64,000 nt of DNA from Yoonia vestfoldensis (GTDB lineage: Bacteria > Pseudomonadota > Alphaproteobacteria > Rhodobacterales > Rhodobacteraceae): contig NZ_CP021431.1 in assembly GCF_002158905.1 (NCBI RefSeq), positions 3,039,001-3,103,000 of the forward strand. Direction: 5' to 3'. The notes below the pieces were generated by a model. The model saw only the letters and a list, made by a program, of their open reading frames with translations. It did not search any database and was not told the origin of the DNA. Numbering within the stretch: position 1 is the first letter of the stretch; each line of letters begins with the position of its first letter. This document shows, piece after piece, positions 13,265-64,000 of this stretch. The position numbers were made by a program, and so were the translations under genes.

Positions 13265-13513
13265 ATGCCAGACATTGGAACTGCCCCGCGATCCAGTAGC
13301 CCTCAGCGCCTGATGAGCGGTTGGATCAGCCGCCTCGACCTCGCCCTTGAGCTCGGGGTCACCGTTGAAACCCTGCACCGCTGGGAGAAGATCCGCTTCG
13401 GCCCGCCCTGCGTGCGTGCCGGTCGCAAGATCTATTATCGCCGAGATGCCGTGCAGGAATGGCTGATGCTGCAGGAAGCCCCTGCACCGCGTCGTGCGGG
13501 GTCACGCCGATGA
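13265..13513 (+). CDS. Helix-turn-helix excisionase-like protein
   Basis: The product has 82 residues with GGAG seven bases before the ATG at 13265. The core SGWISRLDLALELGVTVETLHRWEK, then KIYYRRDAVQEWLM, is the MerR/AlpA/Xis-type winged helix used by small phage and island excisionases. It is the first gene of a tight, co-directional run (13265-15861) whose members overlap by ATGA. It probably directs excision with the integrase, or regulates the early operon. Confidence 0.8.
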   Translation: MPDIGTAPRSSSPQRLMSGWISRLDLALELGVTVETLHRWEKIRFGPPCVRAGRKIYYRRDAVQEWLMLQEAPAPRRAGSRR

Positions 13514-13773
13514 GCATCCCCCTTCCCTTTCGCAAGCCCAGCGCCCGGGACCGTGTCCGCCAGGAGTGGATTGAGGAGCGCCGGCGCGAAGCGCGCATGG
13601 TGGTCGCCGATATGGTTCACCATTCCGACTATCTCGTTCGCCTCGCCTGTAATGTGTTGGTCCAGCATGGTGAAACCCCCGAAGAGCGCGAGGATGCCCG
13701 CATCCTTCTTGTCGTACTCGATGCCAAAACACCAGGGCGGCTGCCTGCGCCAGATCGGGAGGGCCGCTCATGA
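13510..13773 (+). CDS. Small hypothetical phage protein
   Basis: The product has 87 residues from the ATG at 13510, which overlaps the previous stop (ATGA). The sequence is charged and helical (RDRVRQEWIEERRREARMVVADMVHHSDY), with no signal peptide and no membrane segment. No named family is recognised. Its place in the translationally coupled early operon, between the excisionase-like and VRR-NUC genes, points to a phage replication or regulation accessory. Confidence 0.65.
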   Translation: MSIPLPFRKPSARDRVRQEWIEERRREARMVVADMVHHSDYLVRLACNVLVQHGETPEEREDARILLVVLDAKTPGRLPAPDREGRS

Positions 13774-14165
13774 AGCGACGCGGAACACCCGAGGCAGATC
13801 TGCAGCGCGCTGTCGTAACCGCGCTGCGCTTTGCCCTCCCCAAGGGCTCGATCATTCATCACAGCGCCAACGAGGTGACAGAGGCAGGCCCGCGCGGGGC
13901 TAAGCGCCAGGCGATCTTGGTAGGCATGGGCGTCCATACCGGCTTTGCCGACCTGATCGTCCTCTGCGGTGGCCGCGTGCTGTTCCTCGAGCTGAAATCC
14001 CTCAAGGGGCGGCTGAGCCCAGCGCAGGAGGCGTTCAGGGACACCGTGCTGGCCCAGGGGTTCGGCTGGGCGCTGGTACGATCGCTTGATGACGCTCTAA
14101 GCGCCTTGGCGGATCATGGATTTACGACGCGCATCGCCTCTCCATCTGGGAGGGTCGCACCATGA
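13770..14165 (+). CDS. VRR-NUC domain nuclease
   Basis: The product has 131 residues and overlaps the previous gene by ATGA. It has the PD-(D/E)xK-like VRR-NUC fold: an early acid in GTPEADLQRAVV, Asp in GVHTGFADLIVL, and ELK in VLFLELKSLKGRLSPAQ. Stand-alone VRR-NUC proteins in phages act as structure-specific (junction or flap) endonucleases in replication or recombination. The metal-binding residues are intact. Confidence 0.88.
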   Translation: MKRRGTPEADLQRAVVTALRFALPKGSIIHHSANEVTEAGPRGAKRQAILVGMGVHTGFADLIVLCGGRVLFLELKSLKGRLSPAQEAFRDTVLAQGFGWALVRSLDDALSALADHGFTTRIASPSGRVAP

Positions 14166-15172
14166 GCCATGCTGCCACAAACTGGGCGATCCAACAGCGC
14201 GGGCTCAAGCCCACCACCAAAATCGTGCTTTGGCATCTCTGCGACCGGTTCAACCCGGACTTCGGCTGTTTTCCATCCCAGGAGCAGCTCGCCCATGATT
14301 GCGAGATCAGCCGATCAACGCTGAATGACCACCTGACGCTGCTCGAGAGTGCTGGGCTGATCCGCCGCGTACAGCGGCTGAATCCAGGCACCAAGCGACA
14401 GATGCCGACCCGCTACATCTTGGCCTTCGAGCCGGGCTTTACCCAAGATCGCGCGGTCCCGGGTCCGAAAACCGGACACGGCTTCGATGCGACCTACACA
14501 GGCGAAGCTGAGGATTCGGAAATCACAGCCATTTCTGAGGATAACTCTGTGGATAACCCGCACCTGTGTCCGAAATCCACACACGGAGCCGTGTCCGATT
14601 TTCACCCCGACCCGTGTCCGGAAAATGCCGATTCCCGTGTCCGAAATCCGGACAGTAACCTTGTAAGAGAACCAGTAAGTAAACCAGCAAAGGAGGAGGA
14701 GGACGCGCAAGCGCGCGAAATCGTCGATGAAGAGTTTTTCGGATCGCTGCTGGCGGCACTGGGCTTTGACCCTGACAGACCTCTCCCCGGCTGGTGGCAG
14801 GGCTGGCCGCCCCGGGAGCATGTTCGGCGCTGGCAAACGGACCTTGGCCTAACCGGCGCCGAGATCCTCGAGGCCGCAGAAGCGTCCCGCCAGGACCACC
14901 CCGAGCCGCCAGATGGGCCCAAGGGCCTGGATCGGGTGATGCAGCGCGCCGCCCAGCGCAAGGCGGATACAAAATCACGTGGTCGGAGCAAGGCGCGAAA
15001 GTCCGCGAAGTCCGAAACGCGGCCAATCACCGACTTGCCCGCATTCTACGCCGAGATGGTCAACTCCGATCGCTACCTGCCCGTCAGCGCGATCTCCAAC
15101 TCCATGCGCGATGCCATGCTGGCCCGGGGCCTCGTGACGGTTGAGCGTCTGCGCGACCGAGGTATCCGATGA
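14162..15172 (+). CDS. Helix-turn-helix protein, probable phage replication initiator
   Basis: The product has 336 residues, coupled to the VRR-NUC gene by ATGA. The N-terminal winged helix (TKIVLWHLCDRFNPDFGCFPSQEQLAHDCEISRSTLNDHL) is the HTH_36 type found in phage and plasmid replication initiators. The middle (about 100-180) is low in order, and its codons carry iteron-like repeats and a DnaA box. The C-terminus is basic, then ends in a short domain (DLPAFYAEMVNSDRYLPVSAIS). An origin inside an initiator gene is the arrangement known from lambda O. The initiator role is inferred from the domain, the repeats and the position. Confidence 0.7.
   Translation: MSHAATNWAIQQRGLKPTTKIVLWHLCDRFNPDFGCFPSQEQLAHDCEISRSTLNDHLTLLESAGLIRRVQRLNPGTKRQMPTRYILAFEPGFTQDRAVPGPKTGHGFDATYTGEAEDSEITAISEDNSVDNPHLCPKSTHGAVSDFHPDPCPENADSRVRNPDSNLVREPVSKPAKEEEDAQAREIVDEEFFGSLLAALGFDPDRPLPGWWQGWPPREHVRRWQTDLGLTGAEILEAAEASRQDHPEPPDGPKGLDRVMQRAAQRKADTKSRGRSKARKSAKSETRPITDLPAFYAEMVNSDRYLPVSAISNSMRDAMLARGLVTVERLRDRGIR
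14548..14660. other. Probable phage replication origin: DnaA box plus TGTCCG iterons
   Basis: A perfect DnaA box TGTGGATAA lies at 14548-14556. TGTCCG then starts at 14567, 14592, 14615 and 14638, a spacing of 25, 23 and 23 bp. Inverted copies (CGGACA) lie at 14473-14478 and 14649-14654. An A-rich stretch follows at about 14655-14695 in otherwise GC-rich DNA and could be the unwinding element. All of this is inside the initiator-like gene. Confidence 0.65.
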
Positions 15173-15861
15173 AACACGATCGCAATCTGCACAGCCGTTC
15201 ACCGCGTAACAGCCATGGGCGAGCAAAGCGCGTCATGTCCGTCCAGCAGGCGCTGGAATGGGCGTTTCGCGTTGAGCATGCCCAGCTGGAGTTACCCGAG
15301 CCACCCGACCCTGAGCGCGGTCAAGGATTCGGCTTCGGTCTCGAATACGTCCTCATGCAGCGCGCGGCGCTGGGCTGCAAAATCGACGGAGGCCAGTACA
15401 AGATGGGCACCTACACCCACGAAGACGCCGAAGTGATCGCCGCCGCCGTGGCTGGGATGCCCGACGACCTCGGCGGCAAGCGCATGGCCATTCGAGTGGC
15501 TGAGCTCGCGCGCGCTGGGCTCACCCCTGATTGGATGCCAGGGGCTGTGCCGCGCTGTGTCCCCGTGGAAATGAAGCGCAATCGACACGGTGATCATGCG
15601 ACGACCGTGGTGGTTGGGACGGAGCGCGTGCTATCGCGCGGCAAATGGCGGACCGTGGAGGTGCGGGCATGTCCGGTCGCCTATCACCCCCATCCCGATC
15701 AGATCTCGGACGCAAGGCGGGCCTACACGACCTGGCGTAAAGCGCTTGGATGGGTGAAAGAAGGACTTGTTTTGGGCAGAATGTTGCGTGAGTTGGAGAT
15801 CACACCGACAATGCCGCCTACCCAACCATGGGCTACAAAAAACCAGCGTTTTGAGGTTTGA
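15169..15861 (+). CDS. Hypothetical phage early protein
   Basis: The product has 230 residues, coupled by ATGA to the initiator-like gene. It has a basic N-terminus, then SVQQALEWAFRVEHAQLEL and a central FGFGLEYVLMQRAALGCKIDGG. The C-terminal half includes SDARRAYTTWRKALGWV, which could be a DNA-contacting helix. There is no membrane segment. I recognise it only as a type of protein that follows the replication genes in Rhodobacteraceae prophages; its function is unknown. It is the last gene of the early operon visible on this side. Confidence 0.6.
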   Translation: MKHDRNLHSRSPRNSHGRAKRVMSVQQALEWAFRVEHAQLELPEPPDPERGQGFGFGLEYVLMQRAALGCKIDGGQYKMGTYTHEDAEVIAAAVAGMPDDLGGKRMAIRVAELARAGLTPDWMPGAVPRCVPVEMKRNRHGDHATTVVVGTERVLSRGKWRTVEVRACPVAYHPHPDQISDARRAYTTWRKALGWVKEGLVLGRMLRELEITPTMPPTQPWATKNQRFEV

Positions 15862-16041: not shown

Positions 16042-16632
16042 ATGACCGATTTTTATGACACACACGCCACAGCTTTTATCTCGACCACACGGGATGTGGA
16101 TATGTTGGACATGCGGCGCCGATTTATGGCGGCTTTACCAATCGCAGAAGGCAAAGCTGCTAGGATCCTTGATGCGGGCTCAGGATCAGGGCGGGACGCG
16201 CTGGCATTCCGGCTTTTGGGTCACAAGGTTGAGGCATTCGATGCCTCTCCTGCGATGGTCGCAGCAACGAGGGACCATTCAGGCGTCCAGGCTCGCCAGA
16301 TGCGGTTCGAAGGTTTTTTCTGGGAACATGCCTTCGAGGGTATCTGGGCATGCGCGTCACTGCTTCATGTTGCCGAATCGGATTTGCCGGAAGTCATCAA
16401 GCGGCTGGCTGCCCATCTGACACTGGGTGGCGCGCTTTACCTGTCCTTTAAGCGCGGCACCGGCGAACGGGTGAAAGACGGACGCCGTTTCACCGATATG
16501 TCGCCGGAAAGTTTGACGGCACTCCTGGACGGGTGCCGCGCATTTGGCGAAGCTGACATCTGGGAAAGCCAGGATTGCCGACCGGATCGGGCGTCAGAAG
16601 TGTGGGTAAATGCAGTGGTAAAGAAGACGTGA
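16042..16632 (+). CDS. Class I SAM-dependent methyltransferase
   Basis: The product has 196 residues. The Rossmann SAM site is ILDAGSGSGRDALAF (motif I), followed by an acidic residue in VEAFDASPAMV (motif II) and a GALYLSFKRGTGE strand. It resembles small TehB/UbiE-like methyltransferases that act on small molecules or proteins; no DNA-methylase DPPY-type motif is present. The stop overlaps a GTG start of the following helicase gene (GTGA at 16629-16632), so the two are probably translated together. The ~180 bp between 15861 and this gene hold no supported gene. Confidence 0.85.
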   Translation: MTDFYDTHATAFISTTRDVDMLDMRRRFMAALPIAEGKAARILDAGSGSGRDALAFRLLGHKVEAFDASPAMVAATRDHSGVQARQMRFEGFFWEHAFEGIWACASLLHVAESDLPEVIKRLAAHLTLGGALYLSFKRGTGERVKDGRRFTDMSPESLTALLDGCRAFGEADIWESQDCRPDRASEVWVNAVVKKT

Positions 16633-19600
16633 CCGGCGGATCGGGTGTCCTTGAAGGGGAAAAAAGCCCTCCATGTGCATTGTGCGATGCCGCTACCAGC
16701 GCAATCGTGGAATGTGACGCCCATGTCATCCTGATCCGCCAAATGGCAGGCCTCGCTCTTGCACCCCGCCGTCATGTCGCACGGTGGCGGGAGCTCTCCG
16801 CGGCGGAACAAGCGGCCCTCGCCGCCAGGATCGGCCCTGCACAAGATCTCCTCGAGACCGATGGCTCAATCGCGCGAATGACGCTGGTTGAGGATGGTGG
16901 CCATGTCCATCTACGGCTCGACCCGCCAGTGGCACCACGAGGCCCATTACCGGGTATGCCCCATGATCGTCCTCTAATCTCGGGGGGCGAAGACGCGCTG
17001 CATGCCCATCTGCGACCCCTGATCGACCGTGCGCGCGCCGTCGATCTGTCGGTGTCGTTCCTGATGACCTCGGGCGTTCGGCTGATCCTGCCGCATCTGC
17101 GCGATCTGCTGGACCGGGGCGGCCAGTTGCGGCTGCTGACCGGCGACTATCTCGGAGTAACGGAACCGGCGGCGCTTCGGCTAATTACCGACCTTGAGGG
17201 GGCGCGGCAGTTGCATGTGTTCCAAGCCACGCAGATCCCGTTTCACCCCAAGGCCTGGATGTTCACTTTCGCAGGTGATGGCGGAGCGCTGATCGTTGGC
17301 TCGTCAAATCTGTCGCGCTCGGCACTAACCGACGGCATCGAATGGAACCTACGCCATATCGACCCAGTCGATCGGACCCCGCTTCTGGCCGCACGCGCGG
17401 CCTTCGATACACTTTTGGTAAGGCCCGAGGTCACCGAACTGACACCCACCTGGATCGACGCCTACGAGGCGCGCCGCGTAGCACCCCAATCGTCGATTAC
17501 CGGCGCCCCGGTGGAAGCCCCGGAAGCTGCCCCTACGCCGCACGAGGTTCAGGTTGAGGCGCTGGCCGCGCTGCGAGCGACCCGGGCGAAGGGCTACGGC
17601 GCTGGGCTCGTGGTGTTGGCTACCGGGCTGGGAAAAACCTTTCTCGCTGCCTTCGACAGCGCAAGTGCAGCCCGCGTCCTGTTCGTGGCGCATCGCGAAG
17701 AAATCCTTACCCAGGCGATGTCCGCCTTCCGAGCAGTGCGGCCCAGCGCGCGGCTTGGCCGCTATAGCGGCGAGGAGAAAGACGCTGGTGCCGATATTGT
17801 CTTTGCCTCGGTCCAGACGCTCGCGCGCAACGCGCATCTCACTCGCTTCGAGCCGACAGCCTTCGATTACATCGTGGTCGATGAGTTCCATCATGCAGCA
17901 GCGGCAACCTATCGGCGCATCATCGATTATTTCCAGCCAAGCTTCCTGCTGGGCCTGACCGCCACGCCCGATCGCAGCGATGGCGGTGACCTGTTGGGGC
18001 TTTGCGAAGAGAACCTGGTCTATGAATGCGACCTCTGGTCTGGGATCGATCGCGGATTGCTGGCACCGTTCCACTATTTTGGCGTGCCTGACCCCGTTGA
18101 ATACGCCCAAATTCCATGGCGCAGCGGTCGGTTCGACGAGGCCGCTCTGACCGAAGCTGTTGCCACCCAGGCCCGAGCCGAGAACGCGCTGGAGCAGCTC
18201 ACCAAGAGGGGCGGCAAGAAGACCATCGGCTTCTGCGTTTCGCGCCGGCATGCAGATTTCATGGCCGATTTCGCACGGCAGCGTGGGTTGCGCGCGGTTG
18301 CAGTCCATTCGGGTGAGACTTCCGCCCCCCGGGCCAGCGCACTGAAGGCGCTCGAAGATGGCGATTTAGACATCGTCTTTGCCGTCGACATGTTCAACGA
18401 AGGCGTCGATGTGCCCTCGATCGACACGGTGCTGATGCTGCGTCCCACCGAAAGCCCGGTGATCTGGCTGCAGCAACTGGGCCGCGGTCTGCGCCGCTCG
18501 GCGGAAAAGACCCATCTGGCCGTGATCGACTACATCGGCAACCACCGCATCTTTCTGACAAAGTTGCGCACGCTCTTGCAGGTGGGCGCGGGCGATGGTG
18601 CGCTTCGCCTGGCGCTGGAGCGGTTTGAAGACAAGATGATCCAGTTCCCTGCAGGCTGCGAGGTGACCTATGATCTACAGGCGCTCGACATTCTGCGATC
18701 CCTGATCCGCCAGCCCCGTGATGGCGAGGAACTGGCCGCGTTCTATCGCGATTTCCGCGAGCGCCATGGAGCAAGGCCCACGGCCTCTGAGGTGCAGCAT
18801 GCCGGCTTCAACCCCGGTCGGACGGGGCATGCGGGCTGGCTGGGTTTCGTTGCCGATATGGGTGACCTGTCCGATACACAGCGCGCCGCATGGACGGCGA
18901 ACCGTGGTCTTCTGGACGAGATCGAAACGACCCGCATGACCCGCAGCTACAAAATGCTGGTCCTACGCGCGATGATCGAGACCGGTGCCTTCCCGGGCCA
19001 GATCGCCCTGACCGATCTGGTCGAGCGCGTCGCCCGGCAGGCTCGCCGCAATCCGCAGATCAAGAATGATCTGAGCGTTGATCCAGATGACACTCGCCGG
19101 CTCCGAGCGGTCATGATGCAGCAACCCCTTAAGATCCTGGCCGAGACAGAGTGGTTCCGGCTCGGGCCGGGAAACTTTGAGACCAACTTCGCAGAAACAT
19201 CGAACACCGCTCTGACCACGCTTGCTTCTCTGAACTCGTGGACTGGCGGCTCCTGCGCTATTTTCAAGCAAAGGACCTGGTCTATGACTCGCCCAAGGAC
19301 ACCAGCCCGGCCGAGGCCGCCGAGGACGCGGCCCCCGCCCCCAAGCCGCCAGGCAAGGACCTGCAACTCTGGCAAGAGTATCAGCGCGACCAGATCGCAC
19401 CATATTTCGGGGCGGTGTTTAATACCGGGTCATGGAACGCTGGCATCGTGGTGCTGAAGGAGGCGCGGGCGATGATCCTGCTGGTGACGATGGACAAGGG
19501 TAGCATGTCCGTCGGCAGCCATTACGCAGATCAGTTCGCCAGCCCCACGCGCTTTGTCTGGCAAACCCAGACCAGCACCCGCCGCGATAACATGCGCGGC

Positions 19601-19807
19601 CGCATCATCTCCGGCGCAGAACCCGGCTGGACGGTACACCTGTTTTTACGCAAATCCAAGCTGCGTGACGGCCGTGCGGCGCCCTTTCGATATGCTGGCC
19701 CGGTGCGCTTCGCCGGCTGGGAGGGCGAGGCGCCCATTACTGTGCAGTGGGACCTCGCACAACCGGTACCTAGGCAACTGACAATGTTGTTTGGAATTGC
19801 GGAGTGA
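16629..19807 (+). pseudogene. HIT-PLD-DEAD/DEAH helicase-DUF3427 protein with a frameshift near 19225
   Basis: The start is GTG at 16629 overlapping the methyltransferase stop. Domain order: HIT-like N-terminus (CALCDAA; HVHLRL, with the third triad His lost); phospholipase-D-like domain (HPKAW, GSSNLSRSAL); SF2 helicase with ATGLGKT, DEFHH (a DEAH-box variant), LTATPDR and QQLGRGLRRS; then a DUF3427-type C-terminus. The frame from 16629 stays helicase-like up to TSNTALTTL and then turns into a proline/arginine-rich out-of-frame tail ending at 19457. The expected continuation FSELVDWRLLRYFQ runs one frame over from 19226 to the stop at 19807. One base appears to be missing at about 19224-19226. 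It is either a real inactivation or a sequencing error. Such helicases are frequent in mobile cargo. Confidence 0.75.
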
Positions 19808-20167: not shown

Positions 20168-20177
20168 CCCCCTACCA

Positions 20178-20457
20178 ATGGTTCCTCCCCGGCCCCATCC
20201 GTATACGGGGGGGCGCAGCGCGCCATTTCGCTAGCGCGTGGCTTTTTCACCGGGGAATCCACCTTGAAGCCAGTCTGGCTCGGCTCGAGATAAAAGTGAC
20301 TCATTATCAAAGCGTTGGCGCGCGAAACCGGTGGCTGATGGGTGGATTTTACTATTTTAGTCAAGAATCCACCTTAGCCAAAATCCAGCCAGGCTAGCCA
20401 GCGTAGGAAGCCTCCCCGGCGGTGGTGCTTTTTCCATTCAGCAGAACATTTAATTGA
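20178..20457. repeat. Direct repeat, left copy, bounding the T6SS locus
   Basis: This copy aligns along its whole length with 50699-50949 in the same orientation. Both start ATGGTTCCTCC and end AGCAGAACATNTTAATT. The best block is 20300-20395: CTCATTATCAAAG, TTGGCGCGCG, TATTTTAGTCAAGAATCCACC and AAAATCCAGCCAG are shared. An inverted repeat GGTGGATT/AATCCACC (20341-20348 and 20366-20373) can form a hairpin in both copies. It holds no supported gene and ends eight bases from the PAAR stop codon. Confidence 0.85.
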
Positions 20458-20464: not shown

Positions 20465-20752
20465 TCACCCGCCGACCAGCACTGTTGGGCAGCCCAGCAC
20501 GATTGTTCCGCCATGCGCCGTGGTGTCACCCATTCGCGCCAAGGGCCGCCCCCCCGCAAGAACGGTCGCGCTGCCCTTGGCGATCACATCAGGCGGGCCG
20601 ACACAGACACACATGCTGCCCAGTCCTGCAGCAGGCAGGCTACCGATCAGAACATTCGGCGCACTGGGCATGACAACAGGCCCACCCACATGCGGTATGA
20701 TCACGGTGACCATCGGACAGACATGCATGTCGGTTATTCGTGCAGCCAGCAT
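20465..20752 (-). CDS. PAAR-domain T6SS spike-tip protein
   Basis: The product has 95 residues from the ATG at 20752, overlapping the upstream stop (TGATG). The sequence is a PAAR repeat protein: MLAARITDMHVCPM, then PAAPNV-like turns, GGRPLARMGDTTAHGGTIV and a terminal CPTVLVGG. PAAR proteins cap the VgrG trimer with a zinc-bound cone (conserved His and Cys are present) and often carry or recruit effectors. This one has no C-terminal effector extension. It is the last gene of the T6SS operon: only eight bases separate its stop from the left direct repeat, so any effector/immunity pair that once followed is gone. Confidence 0.9.
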   Translation of the reverse strand: MLAARITDMHVCPMVTVIIPHVGGPVVMPSAPNVLIGSLPAAGLGSMCVCVGPPDVIAKGSATVLAGGRPLARMGDTTAHGGTIVLGCPTVLVGG

Positions 20753-21333
20753 CAGCGATCTTCCTCGGGGTGCAGATGTGGCCAAAACCCGTCAGCGACA
20801 CGCCGTGCAAGCGCGTCGATAGATTGTGTCGGGGCGGCCCGATCTTCTGCGCGATCAGGCAAGCAGAGTGCGGTGGCCCCAAACACGGCCTTTGCATGCA
20901 GCCACATCGGCGGCAACACTTCGGGCAGATCGCCAGCAACGATGCTGCCTGACCCGCACCAGCCCACAGCAAGGCAAAGCCAGCCCACCGGACCTTCATT
21001 CCCAAGCTTGTCGGCCATCGCCATGCAATCGCGGCGGCGCGTTTCGCTCGGATCGCGCAGCCAGGCAGTCACCTGGTCGAGCGCGTGGATTTCATCAGCC
21101 GTCTGCGCCGGGCAAAGCGTCACGATCACCGCCAAAGACCAGCAAATCCCCTCGCGGGGTGGGACCGCATGTGCAAAAAACCGGATATAATCGACGATTG
21201 TCTCGGGCGTGGCCAAGGCGTCAAGCACCGCTGCGGGCGTCATCGCAGGGTCCAGCCCATCATCCGTCTGGGCGGCAAACCCGGCCCGCGTCAGTATTTC
21301 GCCACTGGTGCTATGGGGTATTTTCTTGAACAT
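20752..21333 (-). CDS. T6SS-associated hypothetical protein (DUF6931-like)
   Basis: The product has 193 residues, mostly helical and soluble (TPAAVLDALATPETIVDYIRFFAHAVPPREGICWSL; ALDQVTAWLRDPSETRRRDCMAMADKLGNEGP). I recall this type as a DUF6931-like protein that accompanies alphaproteobacterial T6SS loci, usually between VgrG and PAAR; the name is from memory and unchecked. The position, coupled to PAAR and eight bases after vgrG, suggests an adaptor or chaperone that loads PAAR or an effector on the spike. No catalytic motif is visible. Confidence 0.65.
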   Translation of the reverse strand: MFKKIPHSTSGEILTRAGFAAQTDDGLDPAMTPAAVLDALATPETIVDYIRFFAHAVPPREGICWSLAVIVTLCPAQTADEIHALDQVTAWLRDPSETRRRDCMAMADKLGNEGPVGWLCLAVGWCGSGSIVAGDLPEVLPPMWLHAKAVFGATALCLPDRAEDRAAPTQSIDALARRVADGFWPHLHPEEDR

Positions 21334-53216: not shown

Positions 53217-53233
53217 CCCACTGTCACGCAGGA

Positions 53234-53791: not shown

Positions 53792-53831
53792 CTGGGCCTC
53801 CTGTCAGGATTGGGGGAATTTAGTTTTGCGT

Positions 53832-54511: not shown

Positions 54512-54524
54512 GTTCTGTCCTCCG

Positions 54525-54743: not shown

Positions 54744-54754
54744 GGTCCGGCCTC

Positions 54755-55629: not shown

Positions 55630-57640
55630 CGGACGTGATTGGAACGCTGATCAGGGCCTGAACGATGGCGAGCTGACCGAGGGCCTTGATCTCGGCTTTG
55701 ATGGCGCCGAGGATATCCTGCGTGTCTGGCGCCGCGGCATACGGCCAGATCCGGACCTGACGGTGTCGCAATGGGCGGATGCGCATCGCAAGCTGTCCTC
55801 GCGGGCAAGCGCCGAGCCCGGACAATATCGTACATCGCGGACGCCTTATCTGCGTGCCATCATGGATGCGCTCTCACCCGGTCATCCGGCGCAGCGTGTC
55901 ACGTTTATGAAAGCGGCGCAGGTTGGGGCGACGGAAGCAGGGAATAACTGGATCGGCTTTGTGATCCATCACGCGCCGGGGCCGATGCTGGCCGTGCTGC
56001 CAACGGTCGAGATGGCCAAGCGCACATCGCGTGGCAGGATTGATCCGCTGATTGAAGACAGCCCCGCGCTGAAAGAACGGGTCCAGCCGGCGCGGTCGCG
56101 CGATGCGGGCAATTCGATGCTCTCCAAGGAGTTTCCGGGCGGCATTCTTGTGCTCACCGGGGCGAACTCGGCAACCGGCCTGCGCTCGATGCCAGCACGC
56201 TATGTGTTTCTGGACGAGGTTGACGCCTATCCAGCTTCAGCAGATGAAGAAGGTGATCCGGTCACACTGGCAGAAGCGCGAACCACCACCTTTGCGCACC
56301 GGCGCAAGGTGTTCATGGTCTCAACCCCGACGATCCGGGGGCTGAGCCGGATCGAGCGCGAGTTTGAAGCCAGCGACCAGAGGCGGTATTTCGTGCCCTG
56401 CCCGCATTGTGGCCATCAGCAATGGCTGCAGTTCGAGCGGCTGCGCTGGGCGAAAGGCAAACCTGAGACGGCCGCCTATCATTGTGCCGGCTGCGAACGG
56501 CCCATCGTCGAACACCACAAGACGCAGATGCTGGAGCGTGGCGAATGGCGGGCGACGGCAGTGTCGGATAACCCGCACGCTATCGGCTTCCACCTCTCGG
56601 CGCTCTATTCGCCGATTGGCTGGAAAAGCTGGGAGCAGATCGCGCGGGACTGGCTGGCCGCCCAAGGCTCCGACGAGATGCTGCGCGCCGCGCGCAACAC
56701 GCTGTTGGGCGAGACTTGGGTTGAGAGCGGCGAGGCACCGGAATGGCAGCGGCTGGCGGATCGGCGCTTTGCTTTCTCGGCGCAGATCCCCGCAGGTGGG
56801 TTGTTCCTGACCGCCGGGGCCGACGTGCAAAAAGACCGCATTGAGGTCGATGTCTGGGCCTGGGGCCGCGGGCTGGAAAGCTGGCTCGTCGATCACATCG
56901 TCATTCCGGGCGGGCCGGATGATCCGGCCTGCTGGGATAAGCTGAGTGCGTTGCTGGGCCGGACATGGACGCATCAGAACGGTGCGATCATGACGCTGGC
57001 AAAGCTTGCAATCGACACCGGCTACGAGTCCGCCGCCGTCTATGCCTGGGCGCGCAAGCAGGGCATCGCGCAGGTCGCACCCGTCAAAGGCTTGGAAGGG
57101 TTCAACAGGGCCACGCCAGTATCAGGGCCAACATTCGTGGATGCCACGGTAAATGGCCGCAAGCTCAAGCGCGGTGCGCGGCTCTGGACGGTGGCCACGG
57201 CCACCTTCAAGGCCGAGACCTATCGGTATCTGCGTATCGAGAGACCGTCTGACGAGGATCGGGCGCTGGGCGCGGCAACCCCCCCAGGAACCATCCACCT
57301 CCCCGACTGGGTAGACAGCGAATGGCTCAAGCAGCTGGTGGCCGAGCAGCTGGTCACCGTGCGCAACAAGCGCGGCTACGCCCGCCAGGAATGGCAAAAG
57401 CTCCGCGAACGCAACGAGGCGCTGGATACACGGGTCTATGCACGCGCCGCCGCCTGGATTCTTGGGGCCGACCGCTTTGATGAGCGCATGTGGCGACAGC
57501 TGGAGAAACAGGCTGGGGTCGAGACATTGGCGACCGTGGCACAACCCGAGACTGACAAAGCAACAGAACCGCAAGCTGGACGTATCACCACCCCGCGGCG
57601 GCGCGGCTGGAAGATCAGCACGCCCAAATACATGGAGTAA
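55577..57640 (+). CDS. Terminase large subunit, GpA family
   Basis: The product has 687 residues; TTG at 55622 would shorten the overlap with the small subunit. The ATPase part has a GpA-type Walker A (MKAAQVGATE, 111-120) and Walker B VFLDEVDAYP (210-219). A zinc-finger-like CPHCG with a second Cys pair (CAGCERP) follows, then the nuclease half. GpA-type terminases cut and pump DNA into the prohead in lambda-like phages. Length is normal. Confidence 0.95.
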   Translation: MSESSSTPWQTSASRLNDGRDWNADQGLNDGELTEGLDLGFDGAEDILRVWRRGIRPDPDLTVSQWADAHRKLSSRASAEPGQYRTSRTPYLRAIMDALSPGHPAQRVTFMKAAQVGATEAGNNWIGFVIHHAPGPMLAVLPTVEMAKRTSRGRIDPLIEDSPALKERVQPARSRDAGNSMLSKEFPGGILVLTGANSATGLRSMPARYVFLDEVDAYPASADEEGDPVTLAEARTTTFAHRRKVFMVSTPTIRGLSRIEREFEASDQRRYFVPCPHCGHQQWLQFERLRWAKGKPETAAYHCAGCERPIVEHHKTQMLERGEWRATAVSDNPHAIGFHLSALYSPIGWKSWEQIARDWLAAQGSDEMLRAARNTLLGETWVESGEAPEWQRLADRRFAFSAQIPAGGLFLTAGADVQKDRIEVDVWAWGRGLESWLVDHIVIPGGPDDPACWDKLSALLGRTWTHQNGAIMTLAKLAIDTGYESAAVYAWARKQGIAQVAPVKGLEGFNRATPVSGPTFVDATVNGRKLKRGARLWTVATATFKAETYRYLRIERPSDEDRALGAATPPGTIHLPDWVDSEWLKQLVAEQLVTVRNKRGYARQEWQKLRERNEALDTRVYARAAAWILGADRFDERMWRQLEKQAGVETLATVAQPETDKATEPQAGRITTPRRRGWKISTPKYME

Positions 57641-57937
57641 TCAGAAGCCAGAGAACACCATATCGAGGGCGCCTCGGATCTCGTAGTCGGATGAGCGAAG
57701 ATCAGCGACAGACCCACCCTTGAGCAGCGCCGACGGGATCGCAGCCATCTCAGCCGTGTGAAGAACGTATGTTGCACCCTCGATCTTGAAGACTGGCTCG
57801 AGGCGCCCGATGGCCTTTGGCCCTGAACCTGCTGGTATGAGCGGCGCCACCACGCGTGTACCGGTCTCGATAAGATCTGTCTGCAGGTCGAGAACAAATC
57901 GACCACCGGCGATATGATAAACCTGGAACTGTGCCAT
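57641..57937 (-). CDS. ccdB: CcdB-type toxin
   Basis: The product has 98 residues from the ATG at 57937, overlapping the ccdA stop (TGATG). MAQFQVYHIAGGRFVLDLQT, then TRVVAPLIPAG, GRLEPVFKIEGATYVLHTAEMAAIPS and the end ALDMVFSGF are CcdB features, including the terminal hydrophobic-Gly-Phe region needed for gyrase poisoning. The pair is inverted relative to the phage head genes and sits between terminase and gpW. Confidence 0.9.
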   Translation of the reverse strand: MAQFQVYHIAGGRFVLDLQTDLIETGTRVVAPLIPAGSGPKAIGRLEPVFKIEGATYVLHTAEMAAIPSALLKGGSVADLRSSDYEIRGALDMVFSGF

Positions 57938-58182
57938 CAGTCGAGCTTCAGAACCTGAATATCCGATAAGGGCGTTCCATTCGCTTCGATCCAGGCACAA
58001 CGCTCTGCGATGGCTGATGCATTCTCTTGAGCCCAAGCCTTTGCTTTTGCCAAGCGGACGGCTTCGGCGACTGCAGCGTCACTGATCGCCGAAACATTAA
58101 GACCAAACTCCCGCGCGGCGGCTAAGTTTGCGGCCGTCAGGGTGATGTTGGTGCGTTGTTTTTCTGTTGTAGCGTGCTGCAT
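57937..58182 (-). CDS. ccdA: CcdA-type antitoxin
   Basis: The product has 81 residues from the ATG at 58182 (MQHATTEKQRTNITLTAANLAA), preceded by GGAGG. It has a ribbon-helix-helix N-terminus and a C-terminal toxin-wrapping tail (ENASAIAERCAWIEANGTPLSDIQVLKL), the CcdA shape. It overlaps ccdB. It would repress its own promoter and hold the gyrase toxin. Confidence 0.88.
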   Translation of the reverse strand: MQHATTEKQRTNITLTAANLAAAREFGLNVSAISDAAVAEAVRLAKAKAWAQENASAIAERCAWIEANGTPLSDIQVLKLD

Positions 58183-58210
58183 CGGGCCCTCCTGACACAT
58201 ACTGAATATA

Positions 58211-58225
58211 CACACTCAAAGTGTG
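58211..58225. promoter_or_regulatory. Palindrome in the ccdAB promoter, probable CcdA operator
   Basis: CACACT-CAA-AGTGTG (six-bp arms, three-base spacer) lies 28 bp upstream of the ccdA ATG and 17 bp before the divergent gpW gene. It is a good candidate for antitoxin autoregulation; binding is inferred. Confidence 0.5.
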
Positions 58226-58242
58226 CCATACAAGTGAGTTCC

Positions 58243-58452
58243 ATGACCCTCGATGAGATGAAACTCCGCCACAGTGCGCTGCTGGCCGCGCGCTACAGCG
58301 GCACACGGTCGGTCAGCTATGACGGCAAGACAGTAAATTACGGCTCTGATGCCGAACTCGCGGCCGCGATCGGAGATATCGAACGGCGCATCGCCAAGCT
58401 GGAACGCGGCGCTGGGCGCATCTTGCGTCCCTATGCTGTGAAGGATCTGTGA
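58243..58452 (+). CDS. gpW-like head-tail joining protein
   Basis: The product has 69 residues from the ATG at 58243: MTLDEMKLRHSALLAARYSG, TRSVSYDGKTVNYGSDAELAAAI and ERRIAKLERGAGRI. This is the lambda gpW fold (small, helical with a beta hairpin) found just before the portal. Frame upstream (to 58156) runs over ccdA and is not coding. Confidence 0.88.
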   Translation: MTLDEMKLRHSALLAARYSGTRSVSYDGKTVNYGSDAELAAAIGDIERRIAKLERGAGRILRPYAVKDL

Positions 58453-59960
58453 TGAACTGGCGGCAGCGCCTTGGCGCTTTCATTGGTGGGTTCGATGCGG
58501 GTCAACACCACCGACGTCTGCGCGGGTTCCAGGCAACAAGGGCCCATGTCAACGCGCTGATCGCAGCCTCGGGCCCCGACATCACCGCCCGCGCCCGCTG
58601 GCTGGTGCGCAACAATGGCTATGCGGTGAACGCTGTGGAAAGCTGGGCCGCCAATACAGTGGGCGATGGCATCAAGCCGATATCAAAAATAGGCGACGCC
58701 GCGCGCAAGGAAGAGCTGCAGCGGCTGTGGCTTGCATGGACCGACGAGGCTGATGCGGAGGGGCTGACCGACTTCTACGGGTTGCAGCGCCGTGCCGCGC
58801 GCGAGGTGTTTCTGGCCGGCGAGGTGTTTTTCCGCATCCGCATGCGCCGCCCAGGCGATGGGCTGACCGTCCCCCTGCAGCTGCAGATGTTGCCTGCAGA
58901 GATGTTGCCACTGGAGCAAACTGGCATCGCCGCGAACGGGAATGCCATCCGGCAGGGCATTGAGTTCGACCGCATTGGACGGCGCGTCGCCTATCACTTT
59001 TTCCGCCGCCATCCAGGCGACAGCACCGATCCGGGGTTGGCAGGGGAGATTGTCCGCGTGCCCGCATCTGAGGTCATCCATGTCATTGATCCCGTCGAGG
59101 GTGGGCAGCTGCGCGGTGTGTCGAAACTAGCGCCCGCCATCGTGAAGCTGTTCCTGCTCGATCAGTACGACGACGCCGAGCTCGACCGAAAGAAGGTCGC
59201 CGCAATGTATGCAATGTTTGTGACCTCCCCGGCCCCGGAGAACCCCCTTGCCCCTGCCGAGGATGATGAGATGCCTGCCGGGGTCGAAATCAGCCCTGGC
59301 CAGATCGTGCGGCTGGACCCAGGCGAAGATGTAACCGTCGGACAGCCTGCCGACAGCGGTGGAACCTATGAGCCGTTCCAGTACCGGACCTTGCTGCAAA
59401 TCTCGGCAGCACTTGGAATCCCCTACCCCTATATTGCCAATGATATGGTGAAGGGGAATTTCTCGAACTCGCGTCTCGCTCTGATCGAATTCCGCCGCCG
59501 GGTCTCGGCTTGGCAACACTCGGTGATGGTGTATCAGCTCTGCCGCCCCGTTTATGCGCGCTGGATGGATGCCGCCGTGCTGTCGGGCGCACTAACCCTG
59601 CCCGGCTATGAGGCCAACCGCATACGGCTGCTGACCGCAGATTGGCTCCCCACCAAATGGGACTGGGTGGATCCGCTGAAAGACGCCAATGCCGAAATCG
59701 CCTCGATCGAAGCAGGGCTGAAATCGCGCACCCAAGCCATCGCCGAGCGTGGCTATGACGCCGAACAGGTCGATCGCGAAATCGCTGCAGAACGTGCGCG
59801 CGAGCGCGCGCTCGGCCTTGACTTCCGCCGGCCGGGCTCTCCTGCGCAGGGCGTGCAGGCTGTACAGGTCAACGATGACGACAGCGAAGATGATGATAGC
59901 AGCGATGACACAGCCGATGACGTGACTGCGCGTTCTCGCACAGCTGAGGACCAATCCTGA
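58452..59960 (+). CDS. Phage portal protein, lambda gpB family
   Basis: The product has 502 residues from the ATG at 58452 (AAGGA six bases upstream; a GTG at 58449 is just in front). Seen: RARWLVRNNGYAVNAVESWAANTVGDGIKP and LPAEMLPLEQTG, then VSKLAPAIVKLFLLDQYDDAELDRKK, ISAALGIPYPYIANDMVKGNFSNSRLALIEFRR. Portal dodecamers form the DNA entry vertex. An acidic Asp/Ser tail ends the protein. It overlaps the protease gene by 1 bp (TGATG). Confidence 0.95.
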   Translation: MNWRQRLGAFIGGFDAGQHHRRLRGFQATRAHVNALIAASGPDITARARWLVRNNGYAVNAVESWAANTVGDGIKPISKIGDAARKEELQRLWLAWTDEADAEGLTDFYGLQRRAAREVFLAGEVFFRIRMRRPGDGLTVPLQLQMLPAEMLPLEQTGIAANGNAIRQGIEFDRIGRRVAYHFFRRHPGDSTDPGLAGEIVRVPASEVIHVIDPVEGGQLRGVSKLAPAIVKLFLLDQYDDAELDRKKVAAMYAMFVTSPAPENPLAPAEDDEMPAGVEISPGQIVRLDPGEDVTVGQPADSGGTYEPFQYRTLLQISAALGIPYPYIANDMVKGNFSNSRLALIEFRRRVSAWQHSVMVYQLCRPVYARWMDAAVLSGALTLPGYEANRIRLLTADWLPTKWDWVDPLKDANAEIASIEAGLKSRTQAIAERGYDAEQVDREIAAERARERALGLDFRRPGSPAQGVQAVQVNDDDSEDDDSSDDTADDVTARSRTAEDQS

Positions 59961-61456
59961 TGCTCCACGCCCGCATTGCCGCACGCGCGTTCAATACGCC
60001 GCTGCTTGTTGAACCCTCCAAAGCCATGGCGTTTCTGTCCGGACTTGGGCCGCGCATCCTTGGGCGACAGGTCGAACTGTCAGGCAGCGATGTGACCGAT
60101 ACGCCCGGCACCGCCGCCCTACCCACCCGCGCCAGCATTCTCGCAGGGAACCTCGCCGAGCGCCTGCGCCAACATGGCGATGCGCCCTACCCGGTTGTAG
60201 ATGGCATCGCTGTGATCGAGATCGCGGGCGTGCTGATCCATCGCGGCAGCTGGATCGGGCAGTCGTCAGGCCAGACCAGCTACGAAGGGATCGCGGCACA
60301 GATCGACGCTGCAGCCAGCGATCCGGCCGTGCGCGGTATTGCGCTGGACATCGATAGTTTCGGCGGTGAGGTCGCTGGCGTCTTTGATCTCGCAGATCGC
60401 ATTCGGGCCATTCGGGGCAGCAAGCCGGTCTGGGCCTTTGTCGCAGAACACGCTTTCTCGGCGGGATATGCGCTCGCCTCACAGGCCAATCGCATCCTGC
60501 TGCCGCGGACCGGTGCGGTCGGCAGCATCGGCGTGGTCGTTATGCATGCCGATCTGAGCGGACAGCTAGATCAGGACGGCGTGCGCGTCACCCTGATCCA
60601 CTCGGGCCGCCACAAAGTCGATGGCAATCCGTATGCGCCGCTGCCAGAGGCGGTGCAGGGCGATATTCAGCGCGAGATCGATGTGCTGCGGTTTCTCTTC
60701 GCCGAAACCGTCGCCGCCGGCCGTGCAGGGCGGCTGAGCCAGGAGGCAGCGCTGGCGACCGAGGCCGCAACCTGTCGCGGGGCGGATGCTGTGGCTGTAG
60801 GTCTCGCCGATGAAGTCATCGATCTCACCCGTGGCTTCAGCGCCTTTCGGCAAGCTGTGAGAAGCCGGCCCGTTTCCATGATGACGCGTTCAACCACCGC
60901 ATCAGCCCGCCAATCAGTTACCCAACCCATCACCCGAAAGGACACCACCATGGCCCACACGCCTGACCCTGAAAACACGCCGCCAGAGGATGTCGATTAT
61001 GCAAAGCTGGATGATCAAGGAGATACTGATCTTGCTACGCCAGCCGCTGATGTCGACGTGGTGGTACCCACCACACCTGCAGCGCGTAAGACACCGACCT
61101 CTTCAGCAGCATCGTCAGTTGAACCCACCCCCGCGCCATCTGCATCATCCGCACCTGTTGCCGCAGCGACTGGCGATCTGGCAGCACTTACAGCGCAGTT
61201 GCGCGAGGCCGCGGCAGAGATTGCCGAGATCGCGGCGCAAGCAGGGCGCCTTGGCATTGCAATCGATGCAGCAAAAGCTCTTCGTGACGGTACAGCACCT
61301 GAGGCTTTGCGCGCACAGGTACTCCAACGCGCAGCCACTGCAGCTGATGCCCGTGATATCGTGGCAGCCCCGCCATCACCCATTCTCCCCAAATCCGCTG
61401 AAAGCCCGATTGTGGCGGCCGCGAAGAAGGCCGCATCGGCTGGCAGCAGGCACTGA
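59960..61456 (+). CDS. S49-family prohead protease with C-terminal scaffold (lambda gpC-like)
   Basis: The product has 498 residues. The N-terminal two thirds are an SppA-like S49 protease: IALDIDSFGGEVAG, Ser167 in AFSAGYALASQ (nucleophile) and Lys219 in SGRHKVDGNPY (general base). The C-terminal third (from 331) is acidic then Ala/Pro/Ser-rich and helical, as expected of a scaffold. An internal in-frame ATG at 60950 with AAAGGA in front probably yields the scaffold alone, as with lambda C and Nu3. Confidence 0.92.
   Translation: MLHARIAARAFNTPLLVEPSKAMAFLSGLGPRILGRQVELSGSDVTDTPGTAALPTRASILAGNLAERLRQHGDAPYPVVDGIAVIEIAGVLIHRGSWIGQSSGQTSYEGIAAQIDAAASDPAVRGIALDIDSFGGEVAGVFDLADRIRAIRGSKPVWAFVAEHAFSAGYALASQANRILLPRTGAVGSIGVVVMHADLSGQLDQDGVRVTLIHSGRHKVDGNPYAPLPEAVQGDIQREIDVLRFLFAETVAAGRAGRLSQEAALATEAATCRGADAVAVGLADEVIDLTRGFSAFRQAVRSRPVSMMTRSTTASARQSVTQPITRKDTTMAHTPDPENTPPEDVDYAKLDDQGDTDLATPAADVDVVVPTTPAARKTPTSSAASSVEPTPAPSASSAPVAAATGDLAALTAQLREAAAEIAEIAAQAGRLGIAIDAAKALRDGTAPEALRAQVLQRAATAADARDIVAAPPSPILPKSAESPIVAAAKKAASAGSRH
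60950..61456 (+). CDS. Nested scaffold protein (lambda Nu3-like), same frame as the protease
   Basis: The product has 168 residues, identical to the C-terminus of the protease gene, from the ATG at 60950. AAAGGA stands at 60937-60942 with about seven bases to the ATG. The content (MAHTPDPENTPPEDVDYAKL, then a long helical GDLAALTAQLREAAAEIAEI segment) fits a removable scaffold. Internal initiation is inferred from the ribosome site and the lambda precedent. Confidence 0.6.
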   Translation: MAHTPDPENTPPEDVDYAKLDDQGDTDLATPAADVDVVVPTTPAARKTPTSSAASSVEPTPAPSASSAPVAAATGDLAALTAQLREAAAEIAEIAAQAGRLGIAIDAAKALRDGTAPEALRAQVLQRAATAADARDIVAAPPSPILPKSAESPIVAAAKKAASAGSRH

Positions 61457-61493
61457 AACACCGAGCTCAGAGCCTGACGCCCGGCCACCTGAT

Positions 61494-61530
61494 CCCCCAC
61501 CGATCCTCCCCGGTGGGGGATTTCTTTTAT
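61494..61530 (+). terminator. Rho-independent-type terminator between scaffold and decoration genes
   Basis: A nine-bp stem CCCCCACCG (61494-61502) / CGGTGGGGG (61511-61519) with an eight-base loop is followed by ATTTCTTTTAT. It lies 38 bp after the protease/scaffold stop and 25 bp before the decoration protein. A partial terminator here would set the ratio of early head to capsid messages, or a separate capsid promoter may exist. Confidence 0.75.
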
Positions 61531-61554
61531 CTCCTGACCACAAGGATCCCCAAC

Positions 61555-61935
61555 ATGAATGTTCTCAGAAAGCCTCCCAGCACAGGCGATATGCTGAAAT
61601 ACGAGCTCAACCCAAACTTCACCCGCGAAACGATCACCCTGCTGGCAGGCGCCGCCTATCCCGTTGGCGCCGTGCTCGGCCGGATTACCGCCAGCGGCAA
61701 ATACAAGCTTGCGTCCTCAGGTGGCACAGATGGTGCGCAAACCGCAGCGGCTGTTCTGCTCTACGCAGCTGATGCCACGTCCGCTGATGCGACAGGATCG
61801 GTTGTCATGCGCGGCCCCGCCATCGTCTCAAAAGCGGCACTGGTCTTTGACGCCACCGTCGATGACGCAGCGAAGATTGCCACCAAGCACGGCCAGCTCG
61901 CTGCGCTGGGCATCATCCCGCGCGATACCGCCTGA
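61555..61935 (+). CDS. Head decoration protein (gpD-like)
   Basis: The product has 126 residues from the ATG at 61555. NPNFTRETITLLAGAAYPVGAVLGRITASGKYKL and AAAVLLYAADATSADATGSVVMRGPAIVS match the lambda gpD / PF02924 beta-tadpole. It stabilises the expanded capsid. It is followed by the major capsid gene, as in lambda. Confidence 0.92.
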   Translation: MNVLRKPPSTGDMLKYELNPNFTRETITLLAGAAYPVGAVLGRITASGKYKLASSGGTDGAQTAAAVLLYAADATSADATGSVVMRGPAIVSKAALVFDATVDDAAKIATKHGQLAALGIIPRDTA

Positions 61936-62001
61936 TTAGGCAGATCTCCCTTCTCATCATTGCGCTTGCGCACATCACCCCCTCATTCTCCGGAGTTTCC
62001 C

Positions 62002-63024
62002 ATGACCATCACCCGCAACCCGTTTGACGCGGGCGGCTATTCGCTCGCCGAGATGACGCAGGCCATCAACATCCTGCCCAATCTCTATACCCGTCTGGGC
62101 CAGCTTGGCCTGTTCCGCTTTCAAGGTGTCACACAGCGCTCTGTTGTCATCGAGCAGCGTGAGGGCGTACTCAGCCTTCTACCATCGGTTCCGCTGGGTG
62201 CGCCGGCAACGTTGGGCACGCGCGAGTTGCGGTCCATGCGCAGCTTTAGCCTGCCATGGATCCCGCATGACGACATCATCCTTCCTGGAGATATCCAGGG
62301 TGTACCTGCGCTTGGCATGTCAGACATGGCTGACCCATTAACCGAGGTAATGACCGAAAAGCTCACAGTGATGCGGCGTAAACACGCACAGACACGCGAG
62401 TACATGGAGATGAATGCGCTGCGCGGTATCGTCAAGGACGGCGCGGGTAGCACACTTTATGATTATTTTGCTGAGTTTGGCCTTGAGCAAATCTCCGTCG
62501 ATTTTGCCTTTGGCACAGCCGGCAGCAACATCCAGGCAAAGATCCGCACCGTGCTGCGCGCAATCGAAGATAACCTCATGGGCGAGACCATGAGCACCGC
62601 CCATGCACTGGTCAGTTCGGAGTTCTTTGACAAGCTGATCAGCCACCCCAAAACCGAAGACGCCTACAAGTTCTTTTCAGCCTCTGGCGGGCAACCGTTG
62701 AGAGACGACATGCGGCGAGCCTTTCCTTTTGGCGGCCTTCTGTTCGAGGAATATAACGGCCGTGCTCCGCTGTCGAACGGCACGACAGAGCGCTTCATTG
62801 GTGTGGGCGAAGGGATCGCTTTTCCGCTGGGCACTTTCGATACGTTTACGACCTACGGCGGCCCCGCCAATCTGCTGGAGGCCGCGAATACAGTCGGCTT
62901 GCCGCTCTATGCCCGCCAGCAAGTTGATGCCAAGGGGCGTTGGATTGATTTGATGACAGAGGCATCCATCCTACCGGTCAACAAGCGGCCGCGGTTGGCG
63001 ATCCGTTTGCACTCTAGCAACTGA
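62002..63024 (+). CDS. Major capsid protein E family
   Basis: The product has 340 residues from the ATG at 62002 with CGGAG six bases upstream. MTITRNPFDAGGYSLAEMTQAINILPN, then RRKHAQTREYMEMNALRG (the family's long helix) and FPFGGLLFEEYNG, with GEGIAFPLGT, match PF03864 (lambda gpE). Length is normal. Confidence 0.95.
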   Translation: MTITRNPFDAGGYSLAEMTQAINILPNLYTRLGQLGLFRFQGVTQRSVVIEQREGVLSLLPSVPLGAPATLGTRELRSMRSFSLPWIPHDDIILPGDIQGVPALGMSDMADPLTEVMTEKLTVMRRKHAQTREYMEMNALRGIVKDGAGSTLYDYFAEFGLEQISVDFAFGTAGSNIQAKIRTVLRAIEDNLMGETMSTAHALVSSEFFDKLISHPKTEDAYKFFSASGGQPLRDDMRRAFPFGGLLFEEYNGRAPLSNGTTERFIGVGEGIAFPLGTFDTFTTYGGPANLLEAANTVGLPLYARQQVDAKGRWIDLMTEASILPVNKRPRLAIRLHSSN

Positions 63025-63381: not shown

Positions 63382-63603
63382 AGAAGGGGCGCGCGCATGA
63401 TCAGCACCTGATCCGTCAAACATCTTTGGCCTCTATCGTCGCGTTTGTGTCGCTTCATTTGAGGCTTCATTGGGGCAGTAGATCATTTGCGGGGCTCTTT
63501 TGCGTGCTCGCAATACTTTTGAACTGCGCGAGGCGAACGGGATAGATTGACCCAAGCCGCTTGCACCTCGTTTCATTGCACCTTGTCTTGGAAGGGAAAC
63601 CTG

Positions 63604-63801
63604 ATGCGCCAAAAGCTACGAGAAATCCGCTGTGTTTGCGCAAAGGGCCAAGAGGTGCTTGTCATCGAATGGGGCTTTGGCGCCTCTGCGGCGGATCAGA
63701 AATCCAGCCGGGAGTTTCGGTTGGAAGACGGATCACCTGTGAATTACATCGGCAGTGCCTTTGAACACTTTTACACAGGGCAAGTCTTTACGCCGGTCTG
63801 A
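63604..63801 (+). CDS. Small hypothetical phage protein
   Basis: The product has 65 residues from the ATG at 63604 with AGGG eight bases upstream: MRQKLREIRCVCAKGQEVLV, IEWGFGASAADQ and AFEHFYTGQVFTPV. No family recognised. The ~220 bp before it (63382-63603) hold no supported gene. Confidence 0.5.
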   Translation: MRQKLREIRCVCAKGQEVLVIEWGFGASAADQKSSREFRLEDGSPVNYIGSAFEHFYTGQVFTPV

Positions 63802-63840
63802 ACATCATCACCAAGCCCACCGATGTAATTGGACACGACC

Positions 63841-64000
63841 ATGAAACTGAATGTCGCAGCTGTGCCCAATTTGGTGGGCATGATGGCTGCTGAAATCACC
63901 GCTGGTGAAAAGGCCGTCACAAAGGCCGTGGGTGACGCGGGCACCAGCCTCAAAACTGCTTGGCGCGCGCAGATCACGGGAGCCGGTCTTGGCCAACGAC
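63841..64000 (+). CDS. Phage minor tail-type protein (DUF6441-like), C-terminus outside the window
   Basis: 53 codons are visible (MKLNVAAVPNLVGMMAAEIT, AGEKAVTKAVGDAGTSLKTAW, ITGAGLGQR), cut by the window end. The pattern of an AGEKAVTKAV helix, then WRAQITGAGLGQRL, is what I recall from DUF6441 phage proteins next to the head-tail genes. The name is from memory and the gene is partial. Confidence 0.6.
   Translation, partial: MKLNVAAVPNLVGMMAAEITAGEKAVTKAVGDAGTSLKTAWRAQITGAGLGQR

Follow-up and report, generated by a model that had tools for sequence, protein, structure and literature searches.

We analysed a 64,000-nucleotide stretch of the Yoonia vestfoldensis genome (the window; contig 1, NZ_CP021431.1, positions 3039001-3103000 of a 3.99-Mb genome in three contigs) in which two blocks of phage genes lie on either side of a type VI secretion system (T6SS). 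The window is very probably part of one cargo-laden prophage island of 97.0 kb, here called element A, in which the T6SS is inserted cargo, and not of two elements. Self-comparison and a search for attachment (att) repeats placed A between two direct repeats enclosing both phage blocks and the T6SS: attL at 6343-6390 (plus strand; 48 bp, 47 of them identical to the 3′ end of tRNA-Met(CAT)) and its 48-bp partner attR at 103302-103349, to the right of the window (window coordinates, continued rightwards, are used unless genome positions are indicated). No further att copy was found between 6.4 and 103.3 kb in this search. A preliminary description of the window had proposed a single prophage around the T6SS, which is borne out by the att pair, the single integrase, a sister element (B) in the same genome and the module order of relatives, although A (6.34-103.35 kb) is larger than was supposed there and the att repeats were absent from that account.

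A is the leftmost member of an array that ends at a tRNA-Met gene beside an rRNA operon, the far-right tRNA-Met being followed by 5S rRNA, 23S rRNA and tRNA-Ala. Intact tRNA-Met genes lie at the right ends of this array and of B, and over 1,960 bases the flank of the B gene is identical (100 %) to that of the array gene. Both ends of A (6343-6591 and 102365-103350) resemble those of B in the self-comparison, so that the boundaries of A are firm despite an empty site not having been obtained. Direct att repeats with an integrase inside are present in A, as for a temperate siphoprophage, whereas a gene transfer agent would have neither; 40 Phage_integrase (PF00589) matches were identified genome-wide, one within A, one within B and two within element C, the right neighbour of A (73.4 kb; att at 103302 and 176693). 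Elsewhere in the genome, positions 2443001-2443070 carry the same terminator-like flank as lies left of A, together with a short piece of a tRNA-Met 3′ end but no intact tRNA; this may be the scar of another element or its left end.

Phage modules, sister element and relatives

A contains one integrase, one presumed replication block and one head-tail-lysis module, with the T6SS between them. The left block comprises a WYL regulator (9569-10561, minus strand; common to B at 93 % protein identity), a tyrosine integrase (11408-12673, minus strand; 98.8 % identical to that of B), a VRR_NUC-like nuclease (13770-14165, plus strand) and an HTH_36 protein (14162-15172, plus strand) which is the presumed replication initiator. 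The preliminary description was right about the integrase of this block, and no structural genes were found there among the proteins scanned, but the VRR_NUC assignment scores below the Pfam cut-off, the labels of an excisionase (13459-13773) and of the 15169-15861 product, neither of which has a Pfam hit, are unconfirmed, and the initiator is presumed, with no origin shown. The right block, all on the plus strand, starts the packaging arm with a ParB-DNA methylase fusion (51139-52401; phrog_498), followed by the terminase small subunit TerS (55060-55629), the large subunit TerL (55622-57640; best INPHARED match 62 %, Rhodobacter phages), the portal protein (58452-59960), a head maturation protease (59960-61456), a head decoration protein (61591-61935) and the major head protein (62002-63024). 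This confirms the run from methylase and terminase to capsid (51139-63024) previously described, and a connector is also encoded alongside TerL and portal. Right of the window, to 77.1 kb, lie genes for a tail terminator, tail proteins, the tape measure, a fibre and an endolysin. Terminase, head, tail and lysis genes are all found in A, whereas a satellite would have no virion genes of its own. Two findings that could have spoken for separate elements were not made: there is no second integrase right of 64 kb up to attR, the next PF00589 match belonging to C, and the proteins scanned left of the T6SS included no tail module. A belongs to a family of integrating, lambda-like siphophages, probably of the cos (cohesive-end) type, that is common in this bacterial family.

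Sister element B (87.2 kb), which matches the capsid end of the window at 95 % identity, has the same att repeats at genome positions 2510865 and 2598042, the right copy being part of its intact tRNA-Met. It has the left module of A (9544-15677) in common at 89.5 % DNA identity, and most of 50937-77505 at 90.8-97.1 % by piece, with one piece at 82.7 %; the last 0.5 kb of the latter region sits 6.5 kb further on in B. B is without the T6SS and holds 17.6 kb of different cargo in that place, where the nine proteins scanned included TetR, HlyD, an AcrB-type pump, an ABC transporter, GDPD, a LacI-type protein and a nucleotidyltransferase of the aminoglycoside-2''-adenylyltransferase family. The recurrence in B of both blocks together with the att repeats indicates that their arrangement as a single element is more than chance. 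Ratios of nonsynonymous to synonymous substitution (dN/dS) over 38 A-B gene pairs ranged from 0.014 to 0.62, with values of 0.015 for the integrase, 0.075 for TerL, 0.031 for the portal, 0.090 for the major head protein, 0.075 for the tape measure and 0.066 for the fibre, while the protease reached 0.20 and the highest values belonged to small proteins. By these ratios the main phage genes are under purifying selection, so that selection has maintained the virion genes over much of the period since the split of A and B; the ratios do not date the arrival of the T6SS.

The methylase was identified at E ≤ 1e-60 in 103 of 394 genomes of the family, and 13 stretches around it, from 11 genomes, were compared. 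Integrase, VRR, initiator, methylase, TerS and TerL are colinear in ten of these stretches (11 elements, as G237 has two), the exceptions being G361 (a 44 % TerL beyond an internal att), G183 (TerL not found) and G303b (integrase not found). None of the 13 stretches contained a T6SS when ten T6SS proteins were tried. The single-prophage proposal therefore fits both comparisons that bear on it, since both blocks keep the same order in 10 of 13 stretches and the prophage is seen without a T6SS in all 13 and in B. The distance from initiator to methylase in the 11 elements is 3.4 to 15.2 kb, apart from 39 kb in the first G237 element. Elements measured from att to att are 47.2 kb in G183, 51.2 or 52.6 kb in G093, 51.4 kb in G023, 51.6 kb in G288 and 52.4 kb in G247, with a larger one in G200 (72.5 kb) and one of 41.6 kb in two pieces in G361. 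G237 (contig C32) has a tandem pair of 109.5 and 73.4 kb from the same element family, the larger of which carries a cargo of 37 kb, mostly metabolic, to the left of cos, between initiator and cos; ten proteins scanned, nine of them from the cargo stretch, included ABC and TRAP transporters, an acyl-CoA dehydrogenase, a transketolase-like protein and a nested integrase. A, B, C and G237 thus all carry large chromosomal-type cargo.

The type VI secretion system and the cos-like sites

The T6SS occupies 20752-46576 on the minus strand and encodes TssA, TssB, TssC, a second VipB-type TssC, Hcp, TssF, TssG, ClpV, VgrG, TssJ, TssK, TssL, TssM and a forkhead-associated (FHA) protein. From its left end it consists of a DUF6931 protein (20752-21333) adjoining VgrG (TssI; 21342-23261), a kinase-like protein (23251-23787), TssM (IcmF; 23883-27320), TssL (DotU; 27313-28197), TssK (28200-29522), the TssJ lipoprotein (29519-30073), the FHA protein (30070-30987), an SBP_bac_3 protein (30984-31724) that is syntenic in related T6SS loci, TssH (ClpV; 31711-34260), named by its AAA_2 and ClpB_D2-small domains and by position, TssG (34260-35237), TssF (35234-37018), a candidate TssE (37015-37422), the second VipB/TssC-type sheath protein (37419-38825), TssC (38835-40313), TssB (40310-40816), Hcp (TssD; 40857-41381) and TssA (41439-42734). 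An ABC_sub_bind protein, an MFS transporter and an unknown protein (42731-46576) complete the minus-strand block and are syntenic with the T6SS in several relatives, whereas a histidine kinase and response regulator on the plus strand (46820-49390) are unmatched beside related T6SS loci. We could identify 12 of the 13 core genes tssA-tssM. The earlier claim of a complete T6SS therefore stands for these twelve, while tssE is assigned by position and synteny alone, the candidate lying in the expected place with no family hit and having syntenic relatives of 33-41 % identity. The tandem VipB/TssC-type sheath genes (37419-40313) are matched in related T6SS loci too.

TssK of A has a single match in its own genome, within A. 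It was found at 50 % identity or more in three of 394 family genomes (its own, G039 and G223), and in two of 388 relatives (its own and G039) at E ≤ 1e-100, a threshold reached in none of the 20 other listed genomes of the genus. When GTDB contigs were scanned with TssC, 17 loci were obtained from Rhodobacterales, Marinomonas, Marinobacterium, Pseudoalteromonas, Vibrionaceae and others, which were compared over 20-21 kb each. TssA, Hcp, TssB and TssC were matched in all 17, DUF6931 in 16, the MFS gene in 13 and the ABC_sub_bind gene in 10, and neither the methylase nor the integrase of A was found in any of these stretches. Among the matches listed, a genome with both methylase and T6SS has them on separate contigs in all cases but two, with spacings of about 208 kb in G093 and about 2.5 Mb in G386 (contig C5); these positions were compared by eye in a sample of genomes, the place of the methylase being unlisted for G013, G137, G294 and G333. 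The T6SS of A is of a marine type with kin located away from this phage, which makes it acquired cargo.

The T6SS block is flanked by two copies of one sequence block, at 20168-20455 (plus strand), just left of the T6SS, and at 50767-50948, which agree at 83 % over 183 bp (E 1.9e-39). We read the left copy as cos1, a presumed cohesive-end site with an intact core at 20180, and the right one as cos2 (50701-50948, plus strand), a second cos-like site with about 18 bp of the core missing. All ten relative stretches concerned have a 69- to 250-bp match to the beginning of the block at 395-475 bp upstream of the methylase, and G361 and G303a each have one additional match elsewhere in the stretch. 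For the best 80 of at least 600 IMG/VR stretches, a cos-like pattern was present within 600 bp upstream of the methylase in 52, at a greater distance in 5 and unseen in 23, of which 20 begin within 437 bp of the methylase and 3 do not. Few IMG/VR contig ends fit cos, and these were not relied on as evidence. The record of the phage RcKemmy begins 110 bp before its ParB gene, and its joined ends resemble the cos block; excerpts of PMC8601537 give 11-base 5′ overhangs for the RcKemmy cluster. This likeness and the position upstream of the methylase make it very likely that the repeated block is the phage cos site, where cleavage is presumed. B has a single cos copy with an altered G run, while that of C is intact. 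Pairwise identities (cos1-cos2 79.6 %, cos1-B 81.9 %, cos2-B 75.8 %) do not date the duplication or order the events, and on these values we dropped the notion of separate lineages for cos1 and cos2.

Taken together, A is most probably a prophage-derived element integrated at the tRNA-Met 3′ end, with an acquired marine-type T6SS of about 26 kb and the two-component system inserted between cos and the methylase-terminase arm, so that a cos-like copy flanks them on either side. The simplest origin would be recombination through cos or between two related elements, and the lysogen may use the T6SS as a weapon, which would favour retention of the prophage. The preliminary description also counted the helicase left of cos1 as an interruption, and this part did not hold: relatives have variable genes in that place too, which leaves the T6SS block right of cos1 as the unusual insertion.

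Accessory genes and alternative readings

The helicase in question has a PLDc-like domain and is type IV restriction-like (16575-19457, plus strand; PADLOC mREase_IV). A DUF3427 match at 19238-19807 overlaps it in another frame, and 16575-19807 looks like a gene split by a frameshift, or by a sequencing error. Near attL lies an AAA/ABC-type ATPase that is a candidate defence protein (6830-9412, plus strand; PADLOC PDC-S06). Defence-like genes, including a DUF4011 helicase and HsdM, are found between 77 and 103 kb of A in the part of the open reading frames scanned there, and 77166-90428, right of the lysis genes, has the PADLOC candidates PDC-S37 and PDC-S14 and a type I methylase. A 2.5-kb insertion at 99856-102366 is 100 % identical to a copy just left of B, and its largest protein has a 49 % match to an IS66-type transposase gene of C.

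Within the window alone the blocks lie 35 kb apart and neither is a whole phage, which might suggest two independent elements, a left integrative island and a right phage remnant, with a chromosomal T6SS between them. One att pair however encloses both blocks, with no att copy in between and a single integrase, and block order is conserved in B and the relatives, 10 of 11 elements having the two less far apart. Barring an assembly error, the att repeats, element B, the relatives and the integrase count reject this reading, which we consider most improbable. The size, tRNA target and modular cargo of A also resemble integrative conjugative elements (ICEs), which carry T6SSs in Bacteroidales according to excerpts of PMC8102008. 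That A is such an element with captured phage genes is barely conceivable given its virion module, and all genome matches to a VirB4-type ATPase (PF03135, three) and to Relaxase PF03432 (one) lie outside A, B and C, other relaxase families not having been searched.

The remaining alternatives concern what A does. Were it a functional temperate phage, the whole 97-kb unit including the T6SS would be packaged from cos1 and infect other cells. The virion genes are present and under purifying selection, the cos1 core is intact, and the closest kin are all large (B 87.2 kb; G237 109.5 and 73.4 kb, with a tape measure 84-86 % identical), but A is about twice the 47-53 kb of five other relatives with both att copies (G093, G183, G247, G288, G023), G361 has 41.6 kb in two pieces and only G200 reaches 72.5 kb. 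Phages with cos ends, such as lambda, are not known to tolerate a range of genome sizes as wide as the 73-110 kb spanned by the close kin. RcC-cluster phages are about 41 kb with 66-nm heads (PMC8601537, excerpts), and no IMG/VR contig with the T6SS of A was found. We therefore consider transfer of the intact unit unlikely, and because A is larger than most measured kin it probably moves rarely or only in pieces. A, B and C could instead be phage satellites or cargo islands that use an integrase and cos and obtain particles from helper phages. Element C lends itself to this: it retains WYL, integrase, initiator, cos and methylase, of the virion genes of A only TerS is matched, over 56 of its 189 residues, and transport and catabolic genes are among the ten proteins scanned. 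C also has a second integrase (genome position 3205969) and may thus be composite, so that it is possibly a satellite-like or composite derivative. For A and B, whose virion genes are present with low dN/dS, a satellite origin is very unlikely.

Several results weigh against the reading of A as a cargo-laden prophage island. No second genome or viral contig, among the 13 relative stretches and IMG/VR, joins the T6SS to this phage, and IMG/VR scans with TssK and TssC found no relative of this T6SS in viral contigs. As no second junction was found, it is equally possible that the T6SS was inserted after lysogeny, with no phage transfer since. In a TssK protein search (7995 candidates scored, 57 proteins at E ≤ 1e-50) the nearest TssK proteins are 97 % (on a 24-kb contig) and 84 % (on a 3.5-Mb contig) identical, compared as proteins alone, and in the 80-kb G039 stretch a 22 % match to the integrase of A lies about 9 kb away from the T6SS. 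No empty site was obtained with the left flank of attL, which matches in two of 56 genus genomes, that of A included; the right flank matched in 41 of 56 but consists of rRNA, repeated within genomes, and gave none either. The 17.9-kb interval right of C at 176.7-194.6 kb (176693-194645) gave no integrase match in the PF00589 genome search; it ends at an intact tRNA-Met with a terminator-like sequence on its 3′ side.

A wider proposal, which we regard as rather unlikely, is that phage-derived carriers of about 50-110 kb load chromosomal blocks (T6SS, efflux, transporters, catabolic genes) beside cos, integrate at rRNA-linked tRNA-Met genes, stack in tandem and move their cargo in particles or by phage-aided recombination. 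If so, the T6SS of A, bracketed by two cos sites, would be the first DNA to enter in packaging from cos1, like the insert of a natural cosmid. Irrespective of that proposal, members of this element family accommodate 30-40 kb of ordinary chromosomal genes and form tandem stacks at tRNA-Met genes linked to rRNA, a point relevant to the movement of large gene blocks in the Rhodobacteraceae.

Comparison with known systems

The phages most similar to A are those of the RcC cluster of Rhodobacter capsulatus (RcKemmy, RcBaka and others), which provide its best INPHARED TerL matches (62 %). RcKemmy has the same order of ParB-type gene, TerS, TerL, gpW-like protein and portal as well as a similar cos-end sequence, but its protease is fused to the capsid. 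RcC phages also differ in their size, 37.6-42 kb, and their life style is marked as not determined in excerpts of PMC8601537. The only TssK match in INPHARED, a weak partial one (29.5 % over 59 %), is to a record not named among them. The T6SS itself shares its gene set and order, including DUF6931, MFS, ABC_sub_bind and SBP genes, with marine Rhodobacterales loci (Donghicola, Sulfitobacter, Epibacterium, Planktotalea, HTCC2083), which differ in having no methylase or integrase of this phage in their 21-kb surroundings and VgrG-DUF6931 at the other end.

Genomic islands, ICEs and plasmids are reported as T6SS vehicles in excerpts of PMC9113992. No T6SS locus inside a tailed prophage was described in the titles and abstract openings of the open-access papers listed, where phrase searches can miss such reports. 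T6SS-bearing plasmids (PMC9113992, excerpts) likewise have a T6SS as mobile cargo, in a plasmid and not a prophage, and the best plasmid-borne TssK match is 34 % identical to that of A. The Bacteroidales ICEs GA1 and GA2 also contain a complete T6SS inside an integrating mobile element (PMC8102008, PMC4714493; excerpts), but are conjugative, whereas the carrier in A is derived from a tailed phage. As an element of tailed-phage type with selected virion genes and a T6SS between its att repeats, A is an additional candidate vehicle for these systems.

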